Assembly: GCA_027482185.1 (NCBI GenBank)
Contig: JAIXWF010000013.1
Coordinates: 1,488,001-1,552,000, forward strand
DNA: 64,000 nt
Direction: 5' to 3'
DNA from: Opitutaceae bacterium
GTDB taxonomy: Bacteria > Verrucomicrobiota > Verrucomicrobiia > Opitutales > Opitutaceae
The notes under the pieces were generated by a model that did not search any database, was not told where the DNA came from, and saw only the letters and a program-made list of their open reading frames with translations. Below are positions 29,222-57,721 of the stretch, piece by piece (position 1 is the first letter of the stretch; every line of letters starts with the position of its first letter). The translations under genes were made by a program, and so were the position numbers.

Positions 29222-30198
29222 ACCTCGGTTTTTCGAAATTTGCCCGCGGGCTCGCCGCTTGGGCCTCGCTCGCGCTGCCGCTGGCCGCACAGCAGGCCAC
29301 GGTGCTCGTGATCGCCGGCGCGCCCGGCGAAGCCGAGTTCGTCCCGGACTTCAAATTGCAGATCGAAGCGTGGACGTCGCTGAGCCTGCAGGCCAAGGCG
29401 CGCCACGTGGTAATCGGCGGCGAATCCACCGATGCCGCCGCGCCCGCCGCCGGGTCCGATCGGGAACGGGTGCAGGCCGCCCTCGCGGCCGAAACGAAAA
29501 CCGGCACGGCGGAACTCTGGATCGTGCTGGTCGGCCACGGCACCTTCGACGGCAAGGAAGCGAAGCTCAATTTGCGCGGACCCGATCTCTCGGCGACGGA
29601 TCTCGCCGCCTGGCTGAAACCGTTCGAACGCCCGCTCGCGATCATCGACACGGCCTCGTCGAGCGCGCCGTTTCTGGCGAAACTCGCCGCGCCGCGGCGC
29701 GTGATCGTCACCGCCACCCGCAGCGGCCACGAACACAACTACGCGCGCTTCGGCAAGTTCCTCGCGGCCGCCGTCGGCGATCCGCAGACCGACCTCGACA
29801 AGGACGGCCAGATTTCGCTGCTCGAATCGTTTCTCAGTGCGTCGCACCGCACCGCCGAATTCTACAAAACCGAAGGCCGTCTCGCCACCGAGCACGCGTT
29901 GCTCGACGACAACGGCGACGGCTTGGGCACGCCCGCGGATTGGTTCCGCGGGACCCGCGCGACCAAGCGCGCCCGCGACGGCGCCGCGCTCGACGGTCTG
30001 CGCGCCCACCAGTTTCACCTCGTCCGCAGTCCCATGGAGCAGGCGCTTTCGGTCGAGGCCCGCGCCCGCCGCGACCAACTCGAGCAGAAGATCGCCGAGC
30101 TCCGCGAAACCAAGGCAAAGCTCGCCGAGGCCGCCTATTACAAGGAACTCGAGCGCCTCATGCTCGAACTCGCCGCCGTCTACGAAACCGGGACCTGA
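29218..30198 (+). CDS. Exported caspase-like (clan CD fold) protein lacking the catalytic cysteine, with EF-hand loops
   Basis: A 326-residue protein with a signal peptide ending near LAAQQA (residue 26). The core resembles caspase/legumain-like peptidases: a strand ending in the His-Gly motif VLVGHG (His107), then a strand ending in AIIDTASS (143-148) where active enzymes have D-[TS]-C. Here residue 146 is Ala, so cleavage activity is unlikely. Residues 192-203 (DLDKDGQISLLE) match the 12-residue EF-hand calcium loop at every ligand position, and 230-241 is a second, weaker loop. A charged helix (275-320) ends the protein. It is the last gene of the envelope operon. The family assignment is mine, from motif order. 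Confidence 0.65.
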   Translation: MNLGFSKFARGLAAWASLALPLAAQQATVLVIAGAPGEAEFVPDFKLQIEAWTSLSLQAKARHVVIGGESTDAAAPAAGSDRERVQAALAAETKTGTAELWIVLVGHGTFDGKEAKLNLRGPDLSATDLAAWLKPFERPLAIIDTASSSAPFLAKLAAPRRVIVTATRSGHEHNYARFGKFLAAAVGDPQTDLDKDGQISLLESFLSASHRTAEFYKTEGRLATEHALLDDNGDGLGTPADWFRGTRATKRARDGAALDGLRAHQFHLVRSPMEQALSVEARARRDQLEQKIAELRETKAKLAEAAYYKELERLMLELAAVYETGT

Positions 30199-30212
30199 GT
30201 CGCGACCCGATC

Positions 30213-30248
30213 TTGGGCCGAAGGCGGGGAATGGGCTCTTCGGCCAAA
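30213..30248 (+). terminator. Hairpin at the end of the envelope operon
   Basis: TTGGGCCGAAG (30213-30223) and CTTCGGCCAA (30238-30247) form a stem of about 10 bp with one bulge and a 14-nt loop, starting 15 bp after the last operon gene. No T-run follows, so termination is plausible but unproven. Confidence 0.4.
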
Positions 30249-30288
30249 GGTTGCGCCCGCGCTGGCACCCCGTTTGCTCCGGCGTCGC

Positions 30289-31212
30289 ATGATCCCTCGT
30301 CCCCGCTTCCCCGGCTGGTTTCGTTTGCTGGTCGTTTGCATCGCCTTGGTTCCGACGCTGGCCGGCCTGCGTGCCGCCGAGCCGGCGCGTCCGCTTTATG
30401 CGATCTGCGCCGCCTATCCGCCGGAGATCGCGGCCCTGCACAAGGAATTCGGCGTCGATGCCGCCAAGGGTTTTACGGAAACCAAGATCAACGGCCTCGT
30501 CTTCTGGCGCGGTTCGTACCGCGGGCGCGATCTCGTGATTTTCCGCACCGGTGTGAGTCTCGTGAACGCCGCCTACCAGCTCCAGCTCGCGCTCGACCGC
30601 TTCCCGATCACGCACGTGCTGTTCGCCGGGGTCGCCGGCGGCACGGATCCGGCGCTGCATGTCGGCGATGTCGTGATCCCCGACCGCTGGGCCTACCACG
30701 CCGAAGCCGCCTACCTCAACGAGGACGGCAAGGGCGGCTACGTTCGACCCGCGTACTACCGCGCCAACTACGAAAATTTCGGCATGATCTTCCCGAGCGA
30801 TGTTTCCGTGGTCCGCGAGGGCGAGGAGACGTTCAGGCACATGCCCGCGTTTCCCGTCGATCCCGCGCTGCTCGCCGCCGCGCGCAAGGCGGTGCCAAAG
30901 CTCGAGCCGATGCGCAAATCCGGCCGCAACGTCGACGTCAGCGTCGGCGGCACCGGTGTTTCCGGCCCCGTCTTCCTCGACAACCGTCCGTACCGCGAAT
31001 GGGTTTTCCGCGTCTGGCAGGCGCGCTGCGCCGACATGGAGTCCACCGCGCTGGCGCAGGTCGCCTACGTTAATCGCAAACCCATCCTCATCGTCCGCGG
31101 CCTCAGCGATCTCGCCGGGGCGCAGCACGGCGCCAATCCGATCGACGAGAACGAATCGAAGGTTTCCGAAATCGCCGTGCGCGTCCTGCGCGCGGTGATC
31201 GACGAGCTGTAG
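30289..31212 (+). CDS. Exported phosphorylase-superfamily nucleosidase (MTA/SAH nucleosidase-like)
   Basis: A 307-residue PNP/UDP-type enzyme that should cleave adenine from 5'-methylthioadenosine, S-adenosylhomocysteine or related nucleosides. [14 protein letters not shown] carries the ribose-binding Met-Glu, and [10 protein letters not shown] carries the base-protonating Asp of MtnN-type enzymes; [10 protein letters not shown] is the conserved glycine loop. It differs from cytoplasmic MtnN in having a signal peptide (about 10-28, ending LRAAEPA) and about 45 extra residues in the middle, so I place it in the periplasm. The start is the ATG at 30289; a TTG five codons upstream is possible. 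The adenine deaminase gene follows 98 bp later. Confidence 0.85.
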
Positions 31213-31310
31213 GACGGGTCCGAAGTCGGGCATCGCGCGGGCGGACTCGCGCTATTCCTCCAGCGCGAAAAACTCGTCGCGCCCGGCCCGAAGTCTGCTC
31301 TCTTTTTCCC

Positions 31311-33110
31311 ATGCTGACCCGCTTCTCCGTCGCCCCGCTCCACACGATGACCCGGACCCTCGCCGCTGTCGCGATGGGCCGGCAGGCGCCCGATCTCGTC
31401 ATCACCGGCGCCCGCGTGCTCTCCACCTACACCGAGCGCATCCACCGCGACCGCGAGGTCTGGATCAAGGGCGGCCGTATCGCCGCCGTGAAACCGGCCG
31501 GCACGTTCAAGAAGGCGAAGCTCGCCGGCAAAACCAAGCTCCACGACGTACGCGGCGGCATCATCGCGCCCGGCCTTGTCGATCCGCACGTGCACATCGA
31601 GAGCAGCATGATGACGGCCTGCGCCTTCGCCGAAGCCGCTTTGCTCAACGGCACCACCACCGTCTTCTGCGATTCCCACGAGATCGGCAACGTGTGCGAC
31701 GTCGCCGGCATCGAGTGGATGCTCGAGGATGCGCGCCAGGCCCCGCTCTCCGTTTTTCTCACCGTTCCCAGCACGGTGCCCGCTACCAACGCGACGCTCG
31801 AGACCGCCGGCGGCGACCTCACGCCCGACAAGATCGGCCGCATCTTCGACCGCTGGCCCGAGGCCGCGGCCCTCGGCGAAAAGATGGACTACATCTCCGT
31901 CGCGATGGGCGATCCGCGCAGCCACGCCGTCCTGGCCGAGGCCCTGAAACGCGGCCGGCCCGTCTGTGGCCACATCTACGGCCGCGACTTCGTCGCCGCC
32001 GGCGCCGCCAGCGGCATCACCGACACGCACGAGTCGATCGACCGCGACATCGCCGACGACTTTCTGGAAAACGGGCTCTGGATCTTTTTGCGCGGCGGCA
32101 ATCCGCTCACGCCGTGGCACTCGCTCCCGCAAGCGATCAAGGCCGTCACCGAACTCGGCGCCAATCCCAAGCGCGTCTGCGTGTGCACGGACGACCGCGA
32201 TGCCGACGATCTCTTCCTCTTCGGCATGGACTGGGTCGTGCGCCAAGCCGTCGCCGCCGGCCTCGGTACCACCACGGCCTGGAGTCTTGGGTCGCTGCAT
32301 CCGGCAACCCGCTACGGGATGGACGGCGACTTCGGCGGCCTCGGGCCGTCCCGCCGTGCCGATCTCGTGCTGCTCAACGACGCGCTCGAAGTGCAGAACA
32401 CGTGGTACGGCGGCGAACTCGTCGTGTCCGGCCGCAAGATCACGCCGGTTCTCGATCGCGCGCTGTCCCGTCGTTACCGTTACCCGAAGGCCGCCTATCG
32501 CACCGTCAAACTTCCGCCCCGCGTGCCGTTGTCGCCGGCGCTGCCCAAGACCGACGCCATCGCCAACGTCATCCGCCTTGTGCCGCCGGGCATTTTGACC
32601 GCGCACGACCGCGTCAAGATTGCCGCCGGCCAATCCTGGGACGAAGTCTTCGCGGCGTCGGACCTCTGTTTCCTCACGGTCATCGAGCGACACGGGAAAA
32701 ACGGCGGCGTCGGCTACGGTTTGCTCCGCGACTTCGGCCTGCGCCACGGCGCCGTGGCCAGCAGCGTGGGCCACGATGCCCACAACATCGTCCTCGCCGG
32801 CACCAACGAGGCCGACCTGCAACTCGCTCTTGCCACCGTGAAGAAACTCAAGGGCGGCGTCTGCGCCGTCCGCGGCGGCAAGGTCCTCGCCAGCGTCGCG
32901 CTCCCGATCGCCGGCCTGCTCTCCGACCGCCGCGCCCCCGTGGTCGCCAAGGAAACCACCGCCCTCAAGCGCGCCTGGACGAAGCTGGGCTGCAAGGTGC
33001 CCTACATGGGCTTCAACTTGCTGCCGCTTTCGGTCATCCCGGAGCTCCGCCTCACCGACAAGGGCCTGATCGACGTCCTTGGGATGAAGGTCGTGCCGCT
33101 CTTCGAATAA
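31311..33110 (+). CDS. ade: Adenine deaminase
   Basis: A 599-residue metal-dependent amidohydrolase that converts adenine to hypoxanthine and ammonia in the cytoplasm. Family marks are the metal-binding [10 protein letters not shown] at residues 91-100, the [13 protein letters not shown] strand, GHIYGRD, and [13 protein letters not shown]. The length and two-part build (TIM barrel plus beta C-terminal domain) match Ade of Bacillus and E. coli type. Met1, Met13 and Met22 are all possible starts, and the conserved part begins only around residue 25. Behind the exported nucleosidase, it would process the adenine that enzyme releases. Confidence 0.93.
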
Positions 33111-33315
33111 GGCCGCCCCGGCCCGGTTCCGCCCCGGCGGCCCAGCGGTCCCGTGCGCACGGCCGGGATTCATCCGATTGCACCTAGGGAAATAACCCCG
33201 TTCAGGCGGGGATTTGGGGCTGTTTGGCATGAGTGGCATTCATTGCGGCGGCAGAATTCCGCGGTTTCTCCTACTTTGAGACCGGAATGGTGCGCGGCCT
33301 GCTAGCAGGGAGGGC

Positions 33316-35787
33316 GTGATACCCAGCAAACCGAACTCCCTCAACACCACCTCTCAGGTCGCCGCCTTGGCGATGGCGCTCGCCGGTGCCGCGACCTTGG
33401 CCGCCCAATCGGCGCCTCCCGCCCAACGCCCGGCCTCCGGCGAGATCACCACGCTGGAGAAATTCCAGGTTTCCGGCGTGCCGATCGAGCAGCAGATTCT
33501 GCCGACGTCCCGGCCGTTCAATTCCGTGTTCGGCACGGACATGAGCATCTTGGAGACGCCCCGCAACGTCACCATCATCTCCCGCGAACAGCTCTCCGCC
33601 ATCGCGATCCAGGACGTGCGCGACTTCTCGAAGCTTACCTCGAGTTCGTACACGCGCACCAACTTCGGCGCCCCCGGCAATCCCGACATCCGCGGCCAGT
33701 CGGGCGACGTGTTCGTCAACGGTATCCGCGAACGCATCACGTCCAACGGCAACGGCATGCCGATCGACTTCAACTCGGTCGAGTCCGTCAACATCGTCAA
33801 AGGCCCGGCCACCGCGGTCCAGGGCGTCTCGACCTACGTCGGCGGCTTCGTCGATCTGGTCACTAAGCGCCCGTACTTCGACGGTTTCAAGGGTTCCAGT
33901 TTCGTCACCGTCGGCAGCTACAGCACCTTCAAGTGGGGCTTCGATGTCGGCGGCCCGGTTTCCAAGGAACTCGCCTACCGCGTCAGCTACGCCGGCGAGG
34001 ACGCCGAGGGCTACTACTACGACCAGTATTCGAAGAAGCACTCGCTCTACGGCGCGATCACCTATCGCCCGAACGCCAACTACGAACTCTTCCTCAACGC
34101 CCAGGCCTTCTATGCGGAGTACGTCGAAAACTTCGGCGTCAACCGCCCGACCCAGCGCCTGATCGACGACGGCTACTACCGGACCGGCGTGAACAACAAT
34201 CCGGCCCCGGTCGCCGGCTTCCCGCAGTACTTCACGGCCGCGGGCGTCCCGATCATCGCCAGCTTCGGCGTGCCCGGCGGCCCGGCCGCGGCGCTCTCCG
34301 ACCCGCAGAATTCCCGCTGGGTCACTTCCGGCTTTCCGGTCAGCAACCGCATGGCCTACGGCCCCGAGGTGAAACTCGACCGCCGTCTCCGCCTGCTGCG
34401 CCCCGGCGACAATTCCATGGGCCGCAACTTCAAGGTCCAGGGCATCCAGACCTTCAAGTCCTCGCCCGACCTCACGGTCGTGAACAACTCGCTCTTCACC
34501 TACACGCGCCGCGACACGCTCAGCTCCTACCACTACTCCGAGGTCATCGATCCGTCCTACACCCTCGAGTCGCGGCTTGAGCTGCAGCAGAAGCTCGGCA
34601 CCCACTCGATCAACTACGGCGCCGCCGTCCGCTACATCAGCGTCAAGGCCTGGGCCGACTTCTTCTTCGAGCCCGCCGCCGTCTGGGACATCACCAAGGA
34701 CCGCAACTTCATCAACGCCTACAACTCGGTGAACTTCGCCGGCCACTTCGCCGCCGCCAAGGTCCCCGGCAAGCCCGACCGCTACGGCTCGACCCTCATC
34801 GCCTTCGGCTCCCCGAGCGGCGCCGACGGCAACATCAGCAACGCCAAGACCCTCGCGCCCTTCGCCCAGGCCAGCTGGAAACTCGCCGAGGACCTCACGC
34901 TCTCCACCGGCGCCCGCGTCGACTTCATGAGCATCTACTCGCGCGATCCGTTCAGCACGGTCGCCGAGGACACCCTCAGCATCGCCCTGCCCAACGGCAA
35001 CATCAGCCTCGGCTACAACCTGTCGCCCAAGATCTCGACGTATGCGACGTACAACTACAGCAAGAACACGTCGGGCGCGGCCGGCAACGGCGGCGGCTAC
35101 ACCGCGTTCATCGGCAAGGGCGCCGGCGGCACCGCGCCGTTCGTCCTCGACAAGACGGCCTTCGAGCAGCCCAGCGAGCTCAAGGAAGTCGGCATGAAAT
35201 TCTCGCTGCTCGACGGCAAGCTGTTCATCGGCACCGCGCTCTTCGACCAGACCCGCCAGAACAAGCCGCAGAACAGCCCCGTCGCGACCTACCGCTACCG
35301 CGGCTTCGAGTTCGAGGCGAATTACCAGCCGAACAAGCACATGTACGCGACGTTCTCCTACGCCCTGATCGACGGCTCCGTGCCCGCCGCGAACATCGGT
35401 TTCGAGGCGCTCAACGTCACGCCCGCCGCCTCCGCCGAAGTTCGGCCCAACACCCAGACCTCCGGCCGCGTCCGCGTCCAGGGCGCCCCGCGCAATCAGC
35501 TGAACGCCCTGCTTTCGTACAAGTACGACAACGGCTTCGGCTTCTCGCTCAACGGCACCTACACGACCGAGATGAACAACAACTGGGCCGGCACGCTCGT
35601 GATCCCGTCGCAATACCAGATCGACGGCGGCCTCTTCTACAACACCAAGAAGTGGGGCGCCCAGCTCACGGTCCTCAACCTGACCGACGAGAAGAACTGG
35701 TCCCCGCCGAACGGCGTCTACGGCAACGAATCCATCCTCGCCGAGCCCGGTATCCGCGGCGAAGTGACGGTCACGTTCCGCTTCTGA
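33316..35787 (+). CDS. TonB-dependent outer-membrane receptor
   Basis: An 823-residue outer-membrane transporter. The signal peptide (AALAMALAGAATLAAQ) ends near residue 33, the plug domain spans about 60-175 (with SREQLSAIAIQDVRDF and DIRGQSGDVFVNGIRE), and the 22-strand barrel ends in VTVTFRF, the usual C-terminal aromatic. The start is a GTG at 33316 with AGGGAGGG 5 bp upstream; the next ATG would remove half of the signal peptide. The ligand is unknown; placement between adenine deaminase and nucleobase permeases suggests a purine-related compound. The 205-bp leader has a GC-only hairpin (33111-33142) and CCCCG-TTCAGG-CGGGG (33196-33211) but no riboswitch I recognise. Confidence 0.92.
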   Translation: MIPSKPNSLNTTSQVAALAMALAGAATLAAQSAPPAQRPASGEITTLEKFQVSGVPIEQQILPTSRPFNSVFGTDMSILETPRNVTIISREQLSAIAIQDVRDFSKLTSSSYTRTNFGAPGNPDIRGQSGDVFVNGIRERITSNGNGMPIDFNSVESVNIVKGPATAVQGVSTYVGGFVDLVTKRPYFDGFKGSSFVTVGSYSTFKWGFDVGGPVSKELAYRVSYAGEDAEGYYYDQYSKKHSLYGAITYRPNANYELFLNAQAFYAEYVENFGVNRPTQRLIDDGYYRTGVNNNPAPVAGFPQYFTAAGVPIIASFGVPGGPAAALSDPQNSRWVTSGFPVSNRMAYGPEVKLDRRLRLLRPGDNSMGRNFKVQGIQTFKSSPDLTVVNNSLFTYTRRDTLSSYHYSEVIDPSYTLESRLELQQKLGTHSINYGAAVRYISVKAWADFFFEPAAVWDITKDRNFINAYNSVNFAGHFAAAKVPGKPDRYGSTLIAFGSPSGADGNISNAKTLAPFAQASWKLAEDLTLSTGARVDFMSIYSRDPFSTVAEDTLSIALPNGNISLGYNLSPKISTYATYNYSKNTSGAAGNGGGYTAFIGKGAGGTAPFVLDKTAFEQPSELKEVGMKFSLLDGKLFIGTALFDQTRQNKPQNSPVATYRYRGFEFEANYQPNKHMYATFSYALIDGSVPAANIGFEALNVTPAASAEVRPNTQTSGRVRVQGAPRNQLNALLSYKYDNGFGFSLNGTYTTEMNNNWAGTLVIPSQYQIDGGLFYNTKKWGAQLTVLNLTDEKNWSPPNGVYGNESILAEPGIRGEVTVTFRF

Positions 35788-35829
35788 GTCCGTCGTCCGG
35801 CGCTTCAGCCCGGGTCGGGTGGTCTGATC

Positions 35830-35847
35830 GCGGGGCTAAAGCCCCGC
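35830..35847. repeat. Short palindrome, REP-like
   Basis: GCGGGGC-TAAA-GCCCCGC is a perfect 7-bp-arm palindrome between the receptor gene and its terminator. This hairpin form is typical of repeated extragenic palindromes; copy number in the genome cannot be seen from here. Confidence 0.5.
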
Positions 35848-35894
35848 GCCACTTCGATCCACGGCCACAGTTTCCGCCGGCTCCTTTCTTCCAA

Positions 35895-35922
35895 CGCCGC
35901 CCGCTTCCCGGGCGGCGTTTTT
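35895..35922 (+). terminator. Rho-independent terminator of the TonB-dependent receptor gene
   Basis: CGCCGCCCG-CTTCC-CGGGCGGCG is a perfect 9-bp GC stem with a 5-nt loop, followed directly by TTTTT. It lies 108 bp after the receptor stop and 50 bp before the next gene, so the permease gene needs its own promoter. Confidence 0.88.
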
Positions 35923-35971
35923 CGTGCCCCGATGGTCGCCGCGGTGGCCTGCGGGCTGCTAGGGTAGGGCG

Positions 35972-37324
35972 ATGGAACCCGCCCCGGCCGCCCCCGCCGC
36001 CTCGCCGCTTGTCGTCTATGGTCTCGAGGACCGCGTGCCCTTCGGCACCGCGCTCCTCGTCGGCGTCCAGCACGTCGCAGCCATGGTGGTCGGCACGGTG
36101 ACGCCCCCGCTGCTTCTCGCCAACGCGCTCAAGTTTTCGCCCGAGGACACCGCCTACTTCATCAGTGTCGCCCTGTTGGCCTCGGGCCTCGGAGCGTTTA
36201 TCCAATGCCGCCGCCGCGGCCCGGTCGGCTGCGGTCTGCTCAGCGTCACGGGCACAAGCTTCGCGTTCATGCAGCCGCTGACCCAGGCCTGGCACGCGGG
36301 CGGGCTCGGCATGATGTTCGGCATGTCGTGCTTCGTCGCGCCGTTCCAGATGGCGCTGGCGCCGCTGCTCGGGAAACTGCGCCGCGTTTTCACGCCGCTG
36401 ATCTCCGGCATCATCGTGCTGCTCATCGGCACCTCGCTGATTCCGACGGCGTTCTTCGGTTTGGCGACGCCGCTGCTCCCCGGCGGCACGCCGTGGCCCG
36501 GCCTGCTCGCGGGCTTTGTCGTGATCGGCGTCATCGTCGCCGCGCAGGCGACCGGCAAGGCCTGGGCCCGCGTCGCCGGCGTGGCCCTCGGCATCGCGGG
36601 CGGCTGCATCGTCTGCGCTGTGGCCGGCGGCCTGCGTGCTCCCGTGAGCCTGACGGACGCGGGCTGGCTCACGCCGCTCCGCGTGCTGCCGTTCGGCTTC
36701 GGGTTCAGCTGGCATCTCGTGCTGCCCTTCGCGTTCATTTATCTCGTGTCGTCGCTCGAAGCGATGGGCGACATGACCGCAACCTCGCAATTGTCGGGCC
36801 TGCCCACGGAGGGTGACGGCCATTGGAAACGGCTTTCCGGCGGTGTGCTCGCCGACGGCCTCGTGTGCAGCATCGCCGCCGTGTTCGGCGGGTTTCCCAG
36901 CACGACCTACGCGCAGAACAACGGCGTGATCCAGATCACCGGCGTCGCGAGTCGGCGCGTCGGCTACATCATGGCCGCGATTCTCGCGGTGCTCGGCCTC
37001 GTGCCCATCGTCGGCCGCGCGGTCACCGCGGTGCCGCCGCCGGTCCTCGGGGCGTTGGCGCTGCTGCTCTTCGGACTCGTCGCCGTCTCGGGCCTGCGGC
37101 TGATCTTGAGCGCGGGCCTTGGCCAACGCGAAGCCGTGATCGTGGCGTTGGCGCTGGGCGTGGGCCTCGGGTTGCCGACGCAGCCGGGGCTGGTGGCGAA
37201 GTTTCCCGAAGTGATCCGGATGGTCTTCGAATCCGGCATCTCCGCCGGCGGCATCACCGCGATCGTCTTGAATCTACTCTGGCCGGCGAAACGGGCGCCG
37301 GAGACAAACCAACAATCTGGTTAA
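35972..37324 (+). CDS. NCS2/NAT-family nucleobase permease (xanthine/urate type)
   Basis: A 450-residue inner-membrane symporter with about 12-14 helices. It has the Gln-His motif GVQHVAAM, the conserved acidic segment SLEAMGDMTATSQ on the substrate helix, and the NAT signature QNNGVIQITG, continuing as GVASRRVG as in XanQ, PbuX and UacT. I therefore expect proton-coupled uptake of xanthine or urate, though uracil carriers are related. It sits behind the receptor's terminator. The stop codon lies inside the left arm of a long inverted repeat. Confidence 0.9.
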   Translation: MEPAPAAPAASPLVVYGLEDRVPFGTALLVGVQHVAAMVVGTVTPPLLLANALKFSPEDTAYFISVALLASGLGAFIQCRRRGPVGCGLLSVTGTSFAFMQPLTQAWHAGGLGMMFGMSCFVAPFQMALAPLLGKLRRVFTPLISGIIVLLIGTSLIPTAFFGLATPLLPGGTPWPGLLAGFVVIGVIVAAQATGKAWARVAGVALGIAGGCIVCAVAGGLRAPVSLTDAGWLTPLRVLPFGFGFSWHLVLPFAFIYLVSSLEAMGDMTATSQLSGLPTEGDGHWKRLSGGVLADGLVCSIAAVFGGFPSTTYAQNNGVIQITGVASRRVGYIMAAILAVLGLVPIVGRAVTAVPPPVLGALALLLFGLVAVSGLRLILSAGLGQREAVIVALALGVGLGLPTQPGLVAKFPEVIRMVFESGISAGGITAIVLNLLWPAKRAPETNQQSG

Positions 37325-37430
37325 CCACTGATGCACACTGATCCTCACTGATGCAGAAGGCAGGGAACCGACCCCAAACCCACGGAGCTATTCCGCTCCA
37401 TCAGTGAACATCAGTGCCCATCAGTGGTTA
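37322..37430. repeat. Long inverted repeat built of CACTGATG units (copy 1)
   Basis: The left arm 37322-37353 reads TAACCACTGATG, then CACTGAT and CACTGATG. The right arm 37399-37430 is the imperfect reverse complement, with CATCAGTG three times and ending GTGGTTA. The arms match over 32 bp with few mismatches around a 45-bp centre. It starts at the stop codon of the permease gene. The 327-bp gap between the two permease genes holds this copy, a second copy, and nothing else I recognise. Confidence 0.85.
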
Positions 37431-37508
37431 GCCCTTCCGGGGTATTTCCTTTCCGCGTCGCCCTCCGGAACCGAAGGTTGAGCGCCGGAAGCAAACGACC
37501 AAACTGGG

Positions 37509-37617
37509 TAACCACTTATGCACACTGATTGTCGCTGATGATGAAGCGGGGGAGCAGACTCCGAACCTGCGGCTCGATTCCCCTCCATCAGTGAACATCA
37601 GTGTCTATCAGTGGTTA
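37509..37617. repeat. Long inverted repeat built of CACTGATG units (copy 2)
   Basis: A second 109-bp copy of the preceding element in the same orientation, 187 bp downstream, with identical ends (TAACCACT...AGTGGTTA) and diverged centres. The similarity extends about 20 bp past the right arm (CCTTCCG-GGT in both copies). It lies 35 bp from the stop codon of the converging permease gene. Confidence 0.85.
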
Positions 37618-37651
37618 GTCCTTCCGTGGTTTCATCCTCCGCGATCCGCCC

Positions 37652-38989
37652 TCAGGAGCCGAAGGGCCAGATGTGGAAGAATTGGAGGAAGAAAATACCC
37701 GCGAGCACGTAGCCGAGGGTCGTCATGCGCTTCGTTTCGCCGAGACCGACGGCGAGCAGCGCCGCCAAAATCAGGCCGAGGCCGATGCCTTCCGCGATGC
37801 TGAACGTGAGCGGGATCGCCAGTATCGTGAGCACGGCCGGCGCGGCGATTTTGAAGTCCGTCATTTCGATCTCGGTGATCGATTGCATCATGAACACTCC
37901 GACGATCACGAGGGCCGGAGCGGTGGCTGCCGCGGGCACCATCAGAATCAACGGCGTGAAAAACAGCGCCACGAGCATCAACATCGCCGTGGTTGCGGAG
38001 GTGAGGCCGGTGCGGCCGCCGGCTTCGACGCCCGAGGCCGATTCGATGTAGCTCACGACCGTCGACGTGCCGAAGAGCGCGCTGAGCAAGGTGGCGATCG
38101 AGTCCGCGAGCAGGGCGCGGCCGGCGCGGGGCAGGGTGCCGTCGGGCCGCAGGAAGCCGGCGCGCTTGGTCACGCCGATCAAGGTCCCGATGTTGTCGAA
38201 CATATCGACGAGCAGCAGCGTGAGGATCAGCGGCAACGCGAGCATCAGGGCGTTGCCGTTGGTCAAGAAACCGAACGTGAGCTTGAAGAACACCGGCGCG
38301 GGCGAGGCCGGCAGGTCGACCAGTTTGCCGGGGAATTGGGTCACGGTTTTGTCGCCGCCGGCGGAAACGAAGAGGCCGATTACGGTAATGGCGGCGATGC
38401 TGATCACGATCGCCCCGGGTACGCGCCGCGCGACGAGGACAGCGGTCAGCACGATGCCGAAGAGGCAAAGCGCCACGGGCCCCGAGGCGAAGTCGCCGTG
38501 CGACACGAACGTTGCGGGGTTGGCCACGATCACGCCGCCGTTTTTCAAACCGATGAAGGCAATGAAAAGCCCGATGCCGCAGGTGACTGCGATCTTCAGC
38601 GCATGCGGGATGGCCGCGATGATCTTCTCGCGGACGCCGGTAACGGAGAGGAGCAGGAAGATCACGCCGTTGACGAACACCATGCCGAGGGCCTCGGACC
38701 AGGGCAGCTTGCGGCCGAGCACCATCGTGAACGTGAAGAACGCGTTGATCCCCATGCCGGGCGCGAGCGCGAGCGGGTAGTTGGTCAGGAGCGCCATGAT
38801 CAGCGTCGCGATCGCGGCGGTGAGCGCGGTGACCGTGACGAGTGCCGCCTTGTCCATGCCGGTGTTGGCCAAGATCGCCGGGTTCACGGCGAGGATGTAG
38901 GCCATGGCCGCGAAGGTCGTGAGCCCGGCCTGCAATTCGCGGCCGACGGTCGTCTGGTTCTGGTCGAGGTGGAAGAGCCGGTTGAGCAT
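37652..38989 (-). CDS. AzgA-type NCS2 purine permease (adenine/guanine/hypoxanthine)
   Basis: A 445-residue inner-membrane transporter of the AzgA branch, distinct from the NAT-type permease at 35972. Family marks are AAMAYILAVNPAIL near the N-terminus, the helix LAPGMGINAFFTF, GLKNGGVI, and IESASGVEAGGRTGLTS in the second half. Characterised relatives (AdeP, GhxP, PbuO) import adenine, guanine or hypoxanthine with protons. It faces the other permease gene tail to tail across the paired repeats, and is divergent from the amidohydrolase gene with 85 bp between starts. Confidence 0.92.
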   Translation of the reverse strand: MLNRLFHLDQNQTTVGRELQAGLTTFAAMAYILAVNPAILANTGMDKAALVTVTALTAAIATLIMALLTNYPLALAPGMGINAFFTFTMVLGRKLPWSEALGMVFVNGVIFLLLSVTGVREKIIAAIPHALKIAVTCGIGLFIAFIGLKNGGVIVANPATFVSHGDFASGPVALCLFGIVLTAVLVARRVPGAIVISIAAITVIGLFVSAGGDKTVTQFPGKLVDLPASPAPVFFKLTFGFLTNGNALMLALPLILTLLLVDMFDNIGTLIGVTKRAGFLRPDGTLPRAGRALLADSIATLLSALFGTSTVVSYIESASGVEAGGRTGLTSATTAMLMLVALFFTPLILMVPAAATAPALVIVGVFMMQSITEIEMTDFKIAAPAVLTILAIPLTFSIAEGIGLGLILAALLAVGLGETKRMTTLGYVLAGIFFLQFFHIWPFGS

Positions 38990-39074
38990 GGAAGTTCGTT
39001 CTCGTTCTCGGGGGTGGCAGGCGTTGTCCTGCGGGTCCGCGAACGCTAGGAAGCGCGGTCAACGAGCTAATACA

Positions 39075-39959
39075 ATGCCAGTTATCGATGCCCACGTGCA
39101 TTTGTATCCGCCGGAGGTCGGCGCCGACCCCGGCGCCTGGGCGTTGGCGCGGGGCGAACCCCATTGGGCCCGGCTGTGCACGCGGCGGCGCCGCGATGGC
39201 CGGCCCGTGCAGGGATTTCCGACCGTGGCGGACCTGCTGCGGACCATGGACGCCGCGGGGATCGATCGCGCCATCTTGCTCGGTTGGTATTGGGAAAAGC
39301 CGGACACTTGCCTTTGGCAAAACCGCTTCTACGCCGACGTCGTCCGCGCCCACCCGGACCGACTCGCCGCCTTTGCCACCGTGCATGCCGGTAGCGGGCC
39401 GGAGGCCGTGGCCGCCGAACTGCGGCGCGCGCGGGAAGAGGGACTTTGCGGAGTGGGGGAACTCTCGCCGCCGGCGCAGGGGATTGCCGCCGACGATCCC
39501 GGCCTCGCGCAGGTCTTCGCCGTCGCCGGGGAACTTGGCCTGCCGGTCAACCTGCACGTCACCGATCCGCAGGGCCGTCCTTACCCCGGGAAAATCGAGA
39601 CGCCGGCCGACGATTTCGCGGCGTGGGCGCGGGCGCATCCGCGGACGACCTTTGTCCTGGCGCATTGGGGCGGAGGTTATCCGCTGACGGACCCGCGCTT
39701 CCGGGCCTTGCCGAATTTGCGCTACGACACCGCCGCCTCGCCGTTGCTTTACGACGCCTCGATCTGGCGGGAAATGGTTTCGGCCGTCGGCGCGGAGAAG
39801 ATCTGGTTCGGTTCGGATTTCCCGTTGCACCTGTATCCGGCGGCCACGGACGCGCCGGAAATGTCCCGGCTGTTGGCCGAGGCCCGCGAGGCCGCGGTGC
39901 CGCCGGCGCTGCTCGGCGACAACGCGGCGCGCGCCCTCGGCTGGGCGACGCCGGCCTGA
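39075..39959 (+). CDS. Amidohydrolase-2 family TIM-barrel hydrolase
   Basis: A 294-residue metal-dependent hydrolase or decarboxylase. IDAHVHLYPPE gives Asp5-His7-His9 for the first metal site, NLHVTD and LAHWGGG supply further His ligands, and FGSDFPL supplies the last Asp of the barrel. The substrate is not defined by sequence; relatives act on aromatic acids, lactones and cyclic amides. Its position next to purine permeases allows a role in purine breakdown, but that is only context. The ATG at 39075 opens straight onto the first metal motif. The stop codon is part of the palindromic element that follows. Confidence 0.82.
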   Translation: MPVIDAHVHLYPPEVGADPGAWALARGEPHWARLCTRRRRDGRPVQGFPTVADLLRTMDAAGIDRAILLGWYWEKPDTCLWQNRFYADVVRAHPDRLAAFATVHAGSGPEAVAAELRRAREEGLCGVGELSPPAQGIAADDPGLAQVFAVAGELGLPVNLHVTDPQGRPYPGKIETPADDFAAWARAHPRTTFVLAHWGGGYPLTDPRFRALPNLRYDTAASPLLYDASIWREMVSAVGAEKIWFGSDFPLHLYPAATDAPEMSRLLAEAREAAVPPALLGDNAARALGWATPA

Positions 39960-40053
39960 TCCCGTAGGGGCGCGCCTCGTGCGCGCCCTAGTCAAACGTC
40001 CACGCCGAACAGCCACGCCGAACAGGCGCGGTCGAGCCGCGCCCCTACGGGAT
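39959..40053. repeat. Composite palindromic (REP/BIME-like) element
   Basis: The outer arms ATCCCGTAGGGGCGCG (39959-39974) and CGCGCCCCTACGGGAT (40038-40053) are perfect 16-bp inverted repeats. Inside are two smaller hairpins, GGGCGCGC-CTCGT-GCGCGCCC (39968-39988) and GGCGCGG-TCGAG-CCGCGCC (40025-40043), separated by a perfect tandem CCACGCCGAACAG (40000-40012 and 40013-40025). This is the architecture of bacterial interspersed mosaic elements mobilised by RAYT transposases; none is in the window. Confidence 0.8.
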
Positions 40054-40145
40054 TGCCCGGAACCAAGCCGCCGGGGGCTTGACGACTTTGCTAGGTTTCA
40101 CGTCGACACCCGGGCGCCCGCCCGGCTGGCTCACCCTTCGCCCGC

Positions 40146-40871
40146 ATGCAATCCACCGTCCTGACCACCGTCGCCGCCACCGGTTTCACCGTGGCGTTTT
40201 TGCATGCGGCCATCCCGACGCATTGGTTGCCGTTCGTGCTCGTTTCCCGGGCGAGGAAGTGGAGCCGCCTGAAGACCATGGCCGTGACCGTCCTCGCCGG
40301 CATGGGGCACGTGCTGCTCACCAGCCTGCTCGGGCTCGGCATCGCGTACTTCGGTTTCCAGCTCGACGAAAACATGGGCAAGGCGTTCCCGTGGATCGCC
40401 GGAGGCCTGCTCCTGAGTTTCGCGGCGTTTTACCTGTGGCGCCAATTCAGCGGCCGCGGCATTCTGCACCATCATCCGCCCGGCAGCCCGCACCATGCGC
40501 ACGAGCACTGCGGCCACGAGGCCGGCTCGAGCCATTGGCAGGAAGAGTTGAAGGACAGCCCGCTCGTTTCCCAACGCTCCGGCGAATGGGCGGCGATCAG
40601 CGGCCTGTTCATCATGCTCACGCTCTCGCCCTGCGAAGGCTTTTTGCCCGTGTATTTGTCCGGCGTGCAATTCGGCTGGCGCGGTTTCTGGGTGCTCAGC
40701 GGCATCCTCGCGGTGGCAACCCTCGCGGGCATGACGCTCTTCACGTGGCTCGCGCTGCTCGGTTTCGACCGCTTCCGGCTCAAGGCCTTCGAACGCTACG
40801 AGGCCGGTCTGCTCGGCGCGCTTTTTGCCGTATTGGGAATTCTGATTCTCGCCCTCGAGCACGACCATTGA
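40146..40871 (+). CDS. Six-helix membrane protein with His-rich loop, NicO/RcnA/UreH-like
   Basis: A 241-residue inner-membrane protein with about six helices. Histidines sit in early helices (His20 and His26 in FLHAAIPTHW, His55 in AGMGHV), and a cytoplasmic or periplasmic loop at residues 108-130 holds ten His and one Cys (HHHPPG, HHAHEHCGHE). This layout resembles the NicO/RcnA/UreH group, which moves nickel or cobalt. C-terminal SPCEGFLP is another conserved-looking patch. The metal and direction are not clear. It stands alone between the REP-like element and glgB. Confidence 0.65.
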   Translation: MQSTVLTTVAATGFTVAFLHAAIPTHWLPFVLVSRARKWSRLKTMAVTVLAGMGHVLLTSLLGLGIAYFGFQLDENMGKAFPWIAGGLLLSFAAFYLWRQFSGRGILHHHPPGSPHHAHEHCGHEAGSSHWQEELKDSPLVSQRSGEWAAISGLFIMLTLSPCEGFLPVYLSGVQFGWRGFWVLSGILAVATLAGMTLFTWLALLGFDRFRLKAFERYEAGLLGALFAVLGILILALEHDH

Positions 40872-57307: not shown

Positions 57308-57323
57308 TGGCACCGGCTTTGCT
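57308..57323 (+). promoter_or_regulatory. Sigma-54 (-24/-12) promoter of the flagellar operon
   Basis: TGGCAC-CGGCT-TTGCT is an exact match to the sigma-54 consensus TGGCAC-N5-TTGC(A/T), with GG and GC 10 bp apart. It is the only such site I found ahead of the flagellar genes. With the C of GC at -12, transcription should start at about 57334, one base before the flgB ATG. It would need an NtrC/FlrC-type activator, which is not encoded in the window. Confidence 0.85.
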
Positions 57324-57334
57324 AAACCGAAGCC

Positions 57335-57721
57335 ATGATCGATCCCATCTTCCAAACCGACAACTACCAGTTGGCGCGGAAGCTTCTGGACGCATCGGCC
57401 CTGCGCCACGAAGCCATCGCGACCAACATCGCGAACGCCGAAACCCCGGGCTTCCGCCGGCTCGACATCGCGCCGGACTTCGCCGTGCAGCTCAAGTCCC
57501 GCGTCGAGGCCGGCAACTTCGGCCGCAATTCCGACACGATCCGCCCGGCCCTGTCCGAGGACCAGACCGCCCGCAGCGTCCGGCCCGACGGCAACACCGT
57601 CGAGATCGAGCGCGAGATGCTCGTCATGAACCGCAACGTCGTGGAGCACGATTTCCTCACCGAGATCGTCTCCCGCAACATCAAGCAGCTGAAGATGGCG
57701 ATCACCGGCCGCCAAGTCTGA
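57335..57721 (+). CDS. flgB: Flagellar basal-body rod protein FlgB
   Basis: A 128-residue proximal-rod protein exported by the flagellar type III system. LRHEAIATNIANAETPGFRR is the rod-family N-terminal signature; the C-terminal helix VEIEREMLVMNRNVVEHDF is also conserved. The ATG at 57335 is the natural start because the family begins two or three residues ahead of FQTDNY. It is the first gene of a flagellar operon that continues to the window end. The sigma-54 site directly upstream leaves almost no 5' leader. Confidence 0.94.
   Translation: MIDPIFQTDNYQLARKLLDASALRHEAIATNIANAETPGFRRLDIAPDFAVQLKSRVEAGNFGRNSDTIRPALSEDQTARSVRPDGNTVEIEREMLVMNRNVVEHDFLTEIVSRNIKQLKMAITGRQV

Follow-up and report, generated by a model that had tools for sequence, protein, structure and literature searches.

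We analyzed a 64,000-nucleotide stretch of contig JAIXWF010000013.1 from an Opitutaceae bacterium (hereafter the window). Between 30.3 and 39.96 kb of the window, six open reading frames encode an MTAN-like nucleosidase, an adenine deaminase (ADE), a TonB-dependent receptor (TBDR), an NCS2 permease, an AzgA-type purine permease and an amidohydrolase (Table 1). An original prediction, made from the DNA letters, had placed these six purine-related genes within about 10 kb. The open reading frames and a Pfam domain search confirmed that all of them are present and that their order is correct. The AzgA gene is convergent with NCS2 and divergent from the amidohydrolase gene. Judging from the gene contents and their conservation in relatives, we consider it likely that the locus is a purine scavenging system reaching from the outer membrane to the cytoplasm, in which the TBDR imports purine nucleosides.

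Table 1. Coordinates of the genes and putative regulatory elements of the purine locus in the window.
Feature	Position	Strand	Evidence or remark
Sigma54-type match TGGCACCCCGTTTGCT	30263..30278	+	11/12; 26 bases before MTAN start
MTAN-like protein, exported MTA/SAH-nucleosidase type (PNP_UDP_1)	30274/30289-31212	+	Pfam, 124 bits
Sigma54-type match, weaker	31284..31299	+	9/12; 27 bases before ADE
Adenine deaminase (ADE)	31311-33110	+	Adenine_deam_C, 172 bits, and Amidohydro_1
Sigma54-type match, weaker	33288..33303	+	9/12; 28 bases before receptor
TonB-dependent receptor (TBDR)	33316-35787	+	Plug, 40.0 bits; TonB_dep_Rec_b-barrel, 67.8 bits
Terminator-like hairpin and T-run, between receptor and NCS2	35901-35915	+	Sequence scan
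Sigma54-type match, weaker	35945..35960	+	9/12; 27 bases before NCS2
NCS2 permease, xanthine/urate type	35972-37324	+	Xan_ur_permease, 235 bits
AzgA-type purine permease	37652-38989	-	PF00860 Xan_ur_permease, 159.9 bits
Amidohydro_2 protein	39075-39959	+	Amidohydro_2, 109 bits; ATG at 39075 most likely start

The MTAN-like protein contains PF01048 and its nearest alignments are MTA/SAH nucleosidases. It shares with these enzymes (Pfs/MTAN) the E, E and D residues, which are unchanged in 19 of 19 aligned sequences and to which we presumptively assign catalytic roles. It differs from them in having an export-type N-terminus, with about 30-40 extra residues by alignment, and in scoring below the curated equivalog cut-offs (TIGR01704/NF004079, 65.6 versus 73.8 and 93.7 versus 169). 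The exported MTA/SAH-type nucleosidase of the original prediction was thus borne out by the conserved residues and by the N-termini of nine homologues, which look export-like by eye. It is likely that this protein releases adenine from nucleosides in the periplasm. ADE aligned across its length to the solved adenine deaminase 3nqb (206 bits) and scored below the TIGR01178 equivalog cut-off (368.1 versus 472.5). We noted no export signal in ADE, which is presumably located in the cytoplasm.

The NCS2 permease exceeded the TIGR00801 cut-off (297.5 versus 291.8 bits) and remained below that of the pbuX xanthine permease (TIGR03173, 351.7 versus 414.15). It aligned best with a solved uric acid-xanthine permease (155 bits), in which QNNGVIALT corresponds to QNNGVIQIT of NCS2, a segment that we take to be the NAT motif of the NCS2 family. 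No NCBIfam model matched the AzgA-type permease at E 0.001; its only domain is PF00860, and we assume the label AzgA from the original prediction and from general knowledge. Across the whole genome, these two permeases of the locus were the only PF00860 matches found. The pair of AzgA and amidohydrolase genes was repeated in relatives, including some where the receptor was not found. As several equivalog cut-offs were missed, the proteins of this locus are divergent members of their families.

Both receptor domains of the TBDR exceeded their Pfam cut-offs (PF07715, 23.9; PF00593, 27). An AlphaFold2 model from a 53-sequence input was a plugged barrel, with a pLDDT of 81.7 and a pTM of 0.83. In Foldseek, the nearest structures to this model were PiuA, FhuA, Fiu and FoxA, with about 15% identity (11-17% among the matches listed); PiuA, FhuA and FoxA had TM-scores of 0.60-0.67 across the query. 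The modeled fold indicates the class of the receptor, not its ligand. Since the best matches in sequence and in fold are mostly siderophore receptors, the TBDR might be a siderophore or metal receptor that lies in a purine locus by chance, supplying, for example, the metal of adenine deaminase. One related locus, L050 (labels with L denote loci and those with G genomes), has metal-type ABC genes, recognized by eye, ahead of ADE and the receptor. However, the siderophore receptors FhuA, PiuA, FoxA and FptA share the plugged barrel at the low identity given above. In the curated siderophore receptor families of NCBIfam, the best score of the TBDR was 48.8 bits against a cut-off of 884, and its NCBIfam receptor-family scores were all at most 49 bits, against cut-offs of 324-1300. 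Its neighbors are purine genes, and no iron-uptake genes were seen among the recurrent neighbors that were scanned. With the purine linkage described below, a siderophore or metal receptor is very improbable. We propose instead that the TBDR is a purine-nucleoside receptor, a ligand suggested by the gene neighborhood.

The genome (6.4 Mb) contains 146 Plug matches, roughly one in every 44 kb, so a single adjacency between a TBDR and purine genes proves little. We compared 57 related genomes, with our own genome counted, using flanks of about 1.5 kb. ADE, NCS2 or AzgA was found within the flanks in 17 of the 21 best receptor loci. The four loci without a purine flank gene were L017, which is cut by a contig end, L019, L020 and L023. 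Comparatively, a control TBDR family from the same genome had purine flank genes in none of 16 loci, with the same queries and the same type of flank. A receptor-alignment scan of public genomes gave 255 relatives, of which the best 80 were used as receptor loci. The closest receptor among these 80 came from a metagenome-assembled genome, Opitutia bacterium Tous-C1TDCM, and was 94% identical. A purine gene lay within 2 kb of the receptor in 64 loci and within 0.5 kb in 60. An apparent ADE end at the contig edge of L188 is additional to the 64 linked loci. When only the 53 loci with 2 kb or more of sequence on each side were counted, the numbers were 42 and 40. Next to the receptor the density of purine genes was 0.36 per kb; at 7.5-9 kb it had fallen to zero. 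The linkage between receptor and purine genes is conserved far above chance.

The gene orders vary among these loci. ADE may precede the receptor; NCS2, NUP or AzgA may follow it; or NUP may precede it on the opposite strand. The gaps between co-directional genes around the receptor are operon-like, with medians of 134 bp from ADE to TBDR (23 cases), 176 bp from TBDR to NUP (19), 125 bp from NUP to deaminase (16) and 77 bp from AzgA to MTAN (9). In split loci the receptor retains a purine partner, such as AzgA in G017 and G020, with ADE elsewhere. G031, with 18 plug matches in 7.4 Mb, has one receptor within a complete purine locus. G040, which belongs to another family of the order and has 10 plug matches in 2.6 Mb, has two more distant receptors, one right after ADE and the other after AzgA. 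In the receptor tree, purine linkage is spread over the clade, and one supported subclade is without it. Such swaps of partners with the purine theme kept are a stronger argument than the counts of loci.

Additional purine genes were found around the receptors of relatives. In one part of the receptor tree, the order TBDR, NUP, adenosine deaminase, AzgA and MTAN recurs on one strand, and all five genes are present in eight loci (L148, L160, L164, L181, L182, L183, L186 and L201). A cluster of eight loci has a further downstream gene; its member in L148, which was scanned, sits between deaminase and AzgA and matched SAM hydroxide adenosyltransferase (161 bits). The loci of Opitutaceae bacterium EW11 (L149) and of IMCC26134 (L136) each contain the receptor together with MTAN, NUP and ADE. 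By eye, the N-termini of nine NUP, nine deaminase and nine MTAN homologues look like signal peptides or lipoboxes; five guanine-deaminase-like N-termini do not have a signal-peptide look. Other neighbors in relatives, with one or two members scanned for each, were an 8-oxoguanine deaminase (681 bits versus a cut-off of 532), an HGPRT-like protein (86 bits, below the cut-off of 150) and a GTP-cyclohydrolase-II-domain protein. The genome of the window has a second island on contig 21, at 324-340 kb (L208, 320000-339999), where a related TBDR is accompanied by two NUPs, an ADE-like protein and three matches to adenosine deaminase. A plasmid of Sphingobium sp. V4 has, in a row, NUP, an exported-type deaminase, a TBDR, NUP and NCS2, and this TBDR is 25% identical to ours. 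The NUPs, the deaminases, the second island and the Sphingobium set point to nucleosides entering the periplasm and being cut there. The predicted succession of uptake, base release in the periplasm, import and deamination is supported and fits every part.

The main rival to nucleoside uptake is that the TBDR imports free purine bases (adenine, hypoxanthine, xanthine, urate or modified bases) and that the nucleosidase is a separate recycling enzyme. Consistent with this, only ADE, NCS2 or AzgA, all of which handle bases, were found as purine neighbors in some loci (for example L126, L134, L137 and L166). In 14 cases the receptor is followed within 0.5 kb, on the same strand, by an NCS2 gene resembling the one in the window, for which the uric acid-xanthine permease is the closest solved relative. 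However, export-type proteins that handle nucleosides also adjoin the receptor directly; in 17 cases a co-directional NUP gene lies downstream of it. Besides, MTAN homologues of at least 57% identity adjoin ADE and/or AzgA in 9 of 10 instances, with our own gene counted and G014 as the exception. Uptake of free bases is less likely than uptake of nucleosides, and we regard it as rather unlikely overall.

The 9-mer TGGCACATG was present in 11 receptor upstream regions, which prompted a test for the sigma54 consensus. We assumed TGGCACG-N4-TTGCW as the -24/-12 consensus and required GG-N10-GC and at least 9 of 12 matches, a threshold that was chosen after the motif had been noticed. With this rule, sites were found upstream of 71 of 77 receptors and in 7.6% of 1600 random windows from the same loci. 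At 10/12 or better, the values were 46 of 77 and 1.8%. Other TBDRs had a site in 1 of 13 and 2 of 20 cases, and distant paralogues in 7 of 18. Sites also lay upstream of ADE (23/28), NCS2 (10/18), AzgA (11/31), MTAN (7/18), NUP (5/29) and the deaminase (5/21), and not upstream of the amidohydrolase (0/11). At the locus itself, the genes of MTAN, ADE, the receptor and NCS2 are each preceded by a match (Table 1); a match of AzgA overlaps the amidohydrolase start and was not relied on. The subclade of receptors without purine neighbors retains the site in its five members that reached the upstream test. Thus, the motif follows the receptor family and by itself is no proof of a purine role. The genes of the locus are probably under the control of sigma54 and may be regulated by nitrogen.

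Flagellar genes are a classic target of sigma54. Only two sites in the window reached at least 11/12, one before MTAN and the other at 57308-57323, 27 bases before an flgB-like gene at 57335 that heads a group of flagellar genes. The flgB-like gene scored 20.3 bits for Flg_bb_rod, with a cut-off of 20.7, and is followed by flgC-, fliE- and fliF-like genes (fliF recognized by Pfam, the others largely by eye). Over the whole window there was no excess of sigma54-type sites of at least 10 matches (5 found; 2-10 in shuffles).

Other regulatory elements were also surveyed. Because of the hairpin between the receptor and NCS2 (Table 1), NCS2 may be a separate transcription unit, but the region has 7 terminator-like hairpins where 8.3 would be expected, and such hairpins are thus not enriched. 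No Rfam riboswitch family reached its gathering score in the window, and no sigma-70-type promoters were found in 30100-40200. A search for palindromic operators upstream of the receptor, AzgA, NUP, ADE and NCS2 gave a best receptor dyad in 4 of 77 regions (at most 3 in shuffles) and a best NCS2 dyad in 6 of 17 regions (at most 2 in shuffles). Many of the top 9-mers in the search for upstream words resembled, by eye, neighboring coding sequences or T-runs.

The linkage could also simply reflect a gene order inherited within a lineage that rearranges slowly, the receptor and the purine genes being functionally unrelated. Gene order does persist in these genomes, since BATUP1 and BATUP2, two neighboring membrane-protein genes for which no role in purine use is evident, remain close to ADE in ten loci. 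However, partners and orientations vary from locus to locus and a purine partner is kept, and the purine-gene density reaches zero within the distance given above. The Sphingobium set is comparable in spite of its divergent receptor. Moreover, the promoter motif is enriched before the receptors and several purine genes, and not before BATUP1 (0/8), BATUP2 (0/5) or other TBDRs. Simple inheritance of gene order is the least credible of the explanations that we considered, and we give it hardly any weight.

In the mechanism that we propose, the TBDR would bind purine nucleosides, most likely of the adenosine type, and TonB would drive their passage through the receptor into the periplasm. There, the exported MTAN-like nucleosidase would free the base. 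In relatives, the NUP proteins, the exported-type adenosine deaminase and the SAM-hydrolase-family protein would also act in the periplasmic release of bases. NCS2 and AzgA would then bring the bases over the inner membrane, and ADE would convert adenine to hypoxanthine and ammonia. Sigma54 RNA polymerase would probably switch the genes on under nitrogen shortage, with the bases serving as nitrogen source. The gene identities, the export-type N-termini (by eye), the linkage and the promoter-like motifs are computed observations, from which we infer the ligand, the direction of flow and the nitrogen regulation. Systems in which a TonB receptor supplies a periplasmic degradation line and inner-membrane carriers are known for glycans and, in Bacteroides, for ribose and nucleosides. 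We are inclined, with less confidence than for the locus itself, to a wider reading in which a sigma54-controlled purine utilisation locus recurs in Opitutaceae and has a counterpart in sphingomonads. It would resemble a polysaccharide-utilisation locus (PUL) and would consist of a TonB receptor family for purine nucleosides, two base permeases and, in the periplasm, a degradation line made up of a SAM-hydrolase-family protein, adenosine deaminase, NUP and MTAN-type nucleosidases; nucleosides would be its nitrogen source.

Several observations weigh against nucleoside uptake by the TBDR. Both free bases and nucleosides are of a size that porins can pass. Because the receptor loci are related by descent, they cannot be counted as independent events. 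Three of the four promoter matches at the locus reach only 9/12, and the messages would be nearly leaderless. The receptors of one subclade (L173, L175, L176, L179, L180 and L184) adjoin other genes. Upstream of the receptor, L173, L175 and L180 carry genes of the RND-efflux type; in these three loci and in L176, the receptor is followed on the other strand by a gene for a conserved protein (about 509 residues). This group lost the purine linkage or never had it. Purine neighbors are also missing in L125, L167, L189, L196 and L200 and at the receptor loci of about 40% identity in G038, G039 and G043. In G025, G017, G020, G012 and G001, the receptor is apart from ADE and lies by NCS2 or AzgA.

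Among 22 ADE orthologues of at least 65% identity in the 57 genomes, nine share their locus with this receptor and one (G040) with a related receptor. No receptor was found at the ADE loci of G022, G016, G018, G029, G004 and G038, and only a fragment in G005, with a profile that was built from this subfamily and that other receptors can escape. Where ADE or AzgA stands alone, its role may be ordinary salvage. The original prediction had named conserved neighborhoods without the receptor as evidence against itself. These exist in part, as four relatives (L052, L053, L054 and L060) have ADE and AzgA side by side and no receptor with them. The receptor is thus an optional addition to salvage genes.

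Behind ADE in G005, a 502-residue frame (L064, 2250-3758) scored 21.2 for Plug against the cut-off of 23.9 and is followed by transposase-like genes. Broken remnants of a receptor lie near AzgA and MTAN in G024 (L070, 4150-5121), which suggests that the receptor was lost there.

Among known systems, the nearest in function is the Rus locus of Bacteroides thetaiotaomicron, a ribose/nucleoside-scavenging locus reportedly described by Glowacki in 2020. Rus presumably combines a SusC-type TBDR, in a SusC/D pair, with ribose metabolism. This arrangement differs from the lone receptor, purine permeases and ADE found here, and we liken the two systems by function, not by homology. In PMC12596196, the Rus locus BT2803-2809 is given as a ribose scavenging system and a figure legend names nucleosides; the likeness is the scavenging of ribose/nucleosides as nutrients. 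The Tsx protein of E. coli, described in excerpts of PMC11658791 as a nucleoside-specific outer-membrane channel, also provides nucleoside entry through the outer membrane, but it is a porin, whereas we propose a TonB-driven receptor. In the literature searched, no paper contained both "purine nucleoside permease" and "TonB-dependent", and no TonB receptor for purines appeared among the listed titles and abstract openings. With the Rus locus as a functional analogue, the earlier statement that a TonB receptor for a purine compound would be novel goes too far. Within the literature searched, the feature that looks new is the form with a lone receptor, purine permeases and probable sigma54 control.

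If our interpretation is true, purine nucleosides would join the short list of TonB-receptor substrates, and a ligand could be guessed for one of the receptor families behind the 146 plug matches in this genome. The NUP proteins, which are named permeases in Pfam and have export-type N-termini here, would be suggested as periplasmic nucleosidases. Nitrogen scavenging from dissolved nucleosides would become testable through a defined set of genes.

Outside the clade, receptor relatives of 25-29% identity occur on plasmids of Pseudoalteromonas and Catenovulum. Of the 8 matched records, 4 were examined and none of these has annotated purine genes, which implies that the wider receptor family is not purine-specific. 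NUP neighborhoods on plasmids were examined in 4 of 43 records. One of these is the Sphingobium set described above. In Granulicella, NUP adjoins an NCS2 permease gene, and a receptor of a different type lies 3 kb away; the NUP loci on plasmids of Skermanella and Qingshengfaniella had no receptor. Paralogues of the receptor lie by other genes, and with the detection used for the 80 loci a purine gene was within 2 kb in 1 of 19 loci, two of which were placed by estimated receptor coordinates. Their neighbors included NMT1-type ABC genes, AtzE/HpxZ-like genes, a gene for an FAD-binding protein, a phosphorylase-superfamily gene 3 kb off (L103) and unrelated genes.

Some of these paralogous loci have features of their own. 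In L116 (2884-9879), the receptor is next to an AtzE-family amidohydrolase and an HpxZ/HpxX-like fusion, which suggests substrates of the oxalurate or biuret type. In L112 (3309-11332) and L105 (7793-11216), the receptors lie directly 3' of ABC transporter genes; the set in L112 includes an NMT1/THI5-type binding protein, with an amidohydrolase near. On contig 17 of our own genome, L210 (2906-10127) has a sigma-factor-like gene and a TonB receptor of 1011 residues, and 1.7 kb past this receptor is a phosphorylase-superfamily gene that looks like an AMP nucleosidase; apart from the Pfam matches, these genes were named by eye.

Between NCS2 and AzgA in the window, the segment 37300-37630 contains two 144-base direct copies, 80% alike, that are built of CACTGAT/ATCAGTG inverted repeats. 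These copies are far above chance and have the appearance of a mobile or REP-like intergenic repeat.

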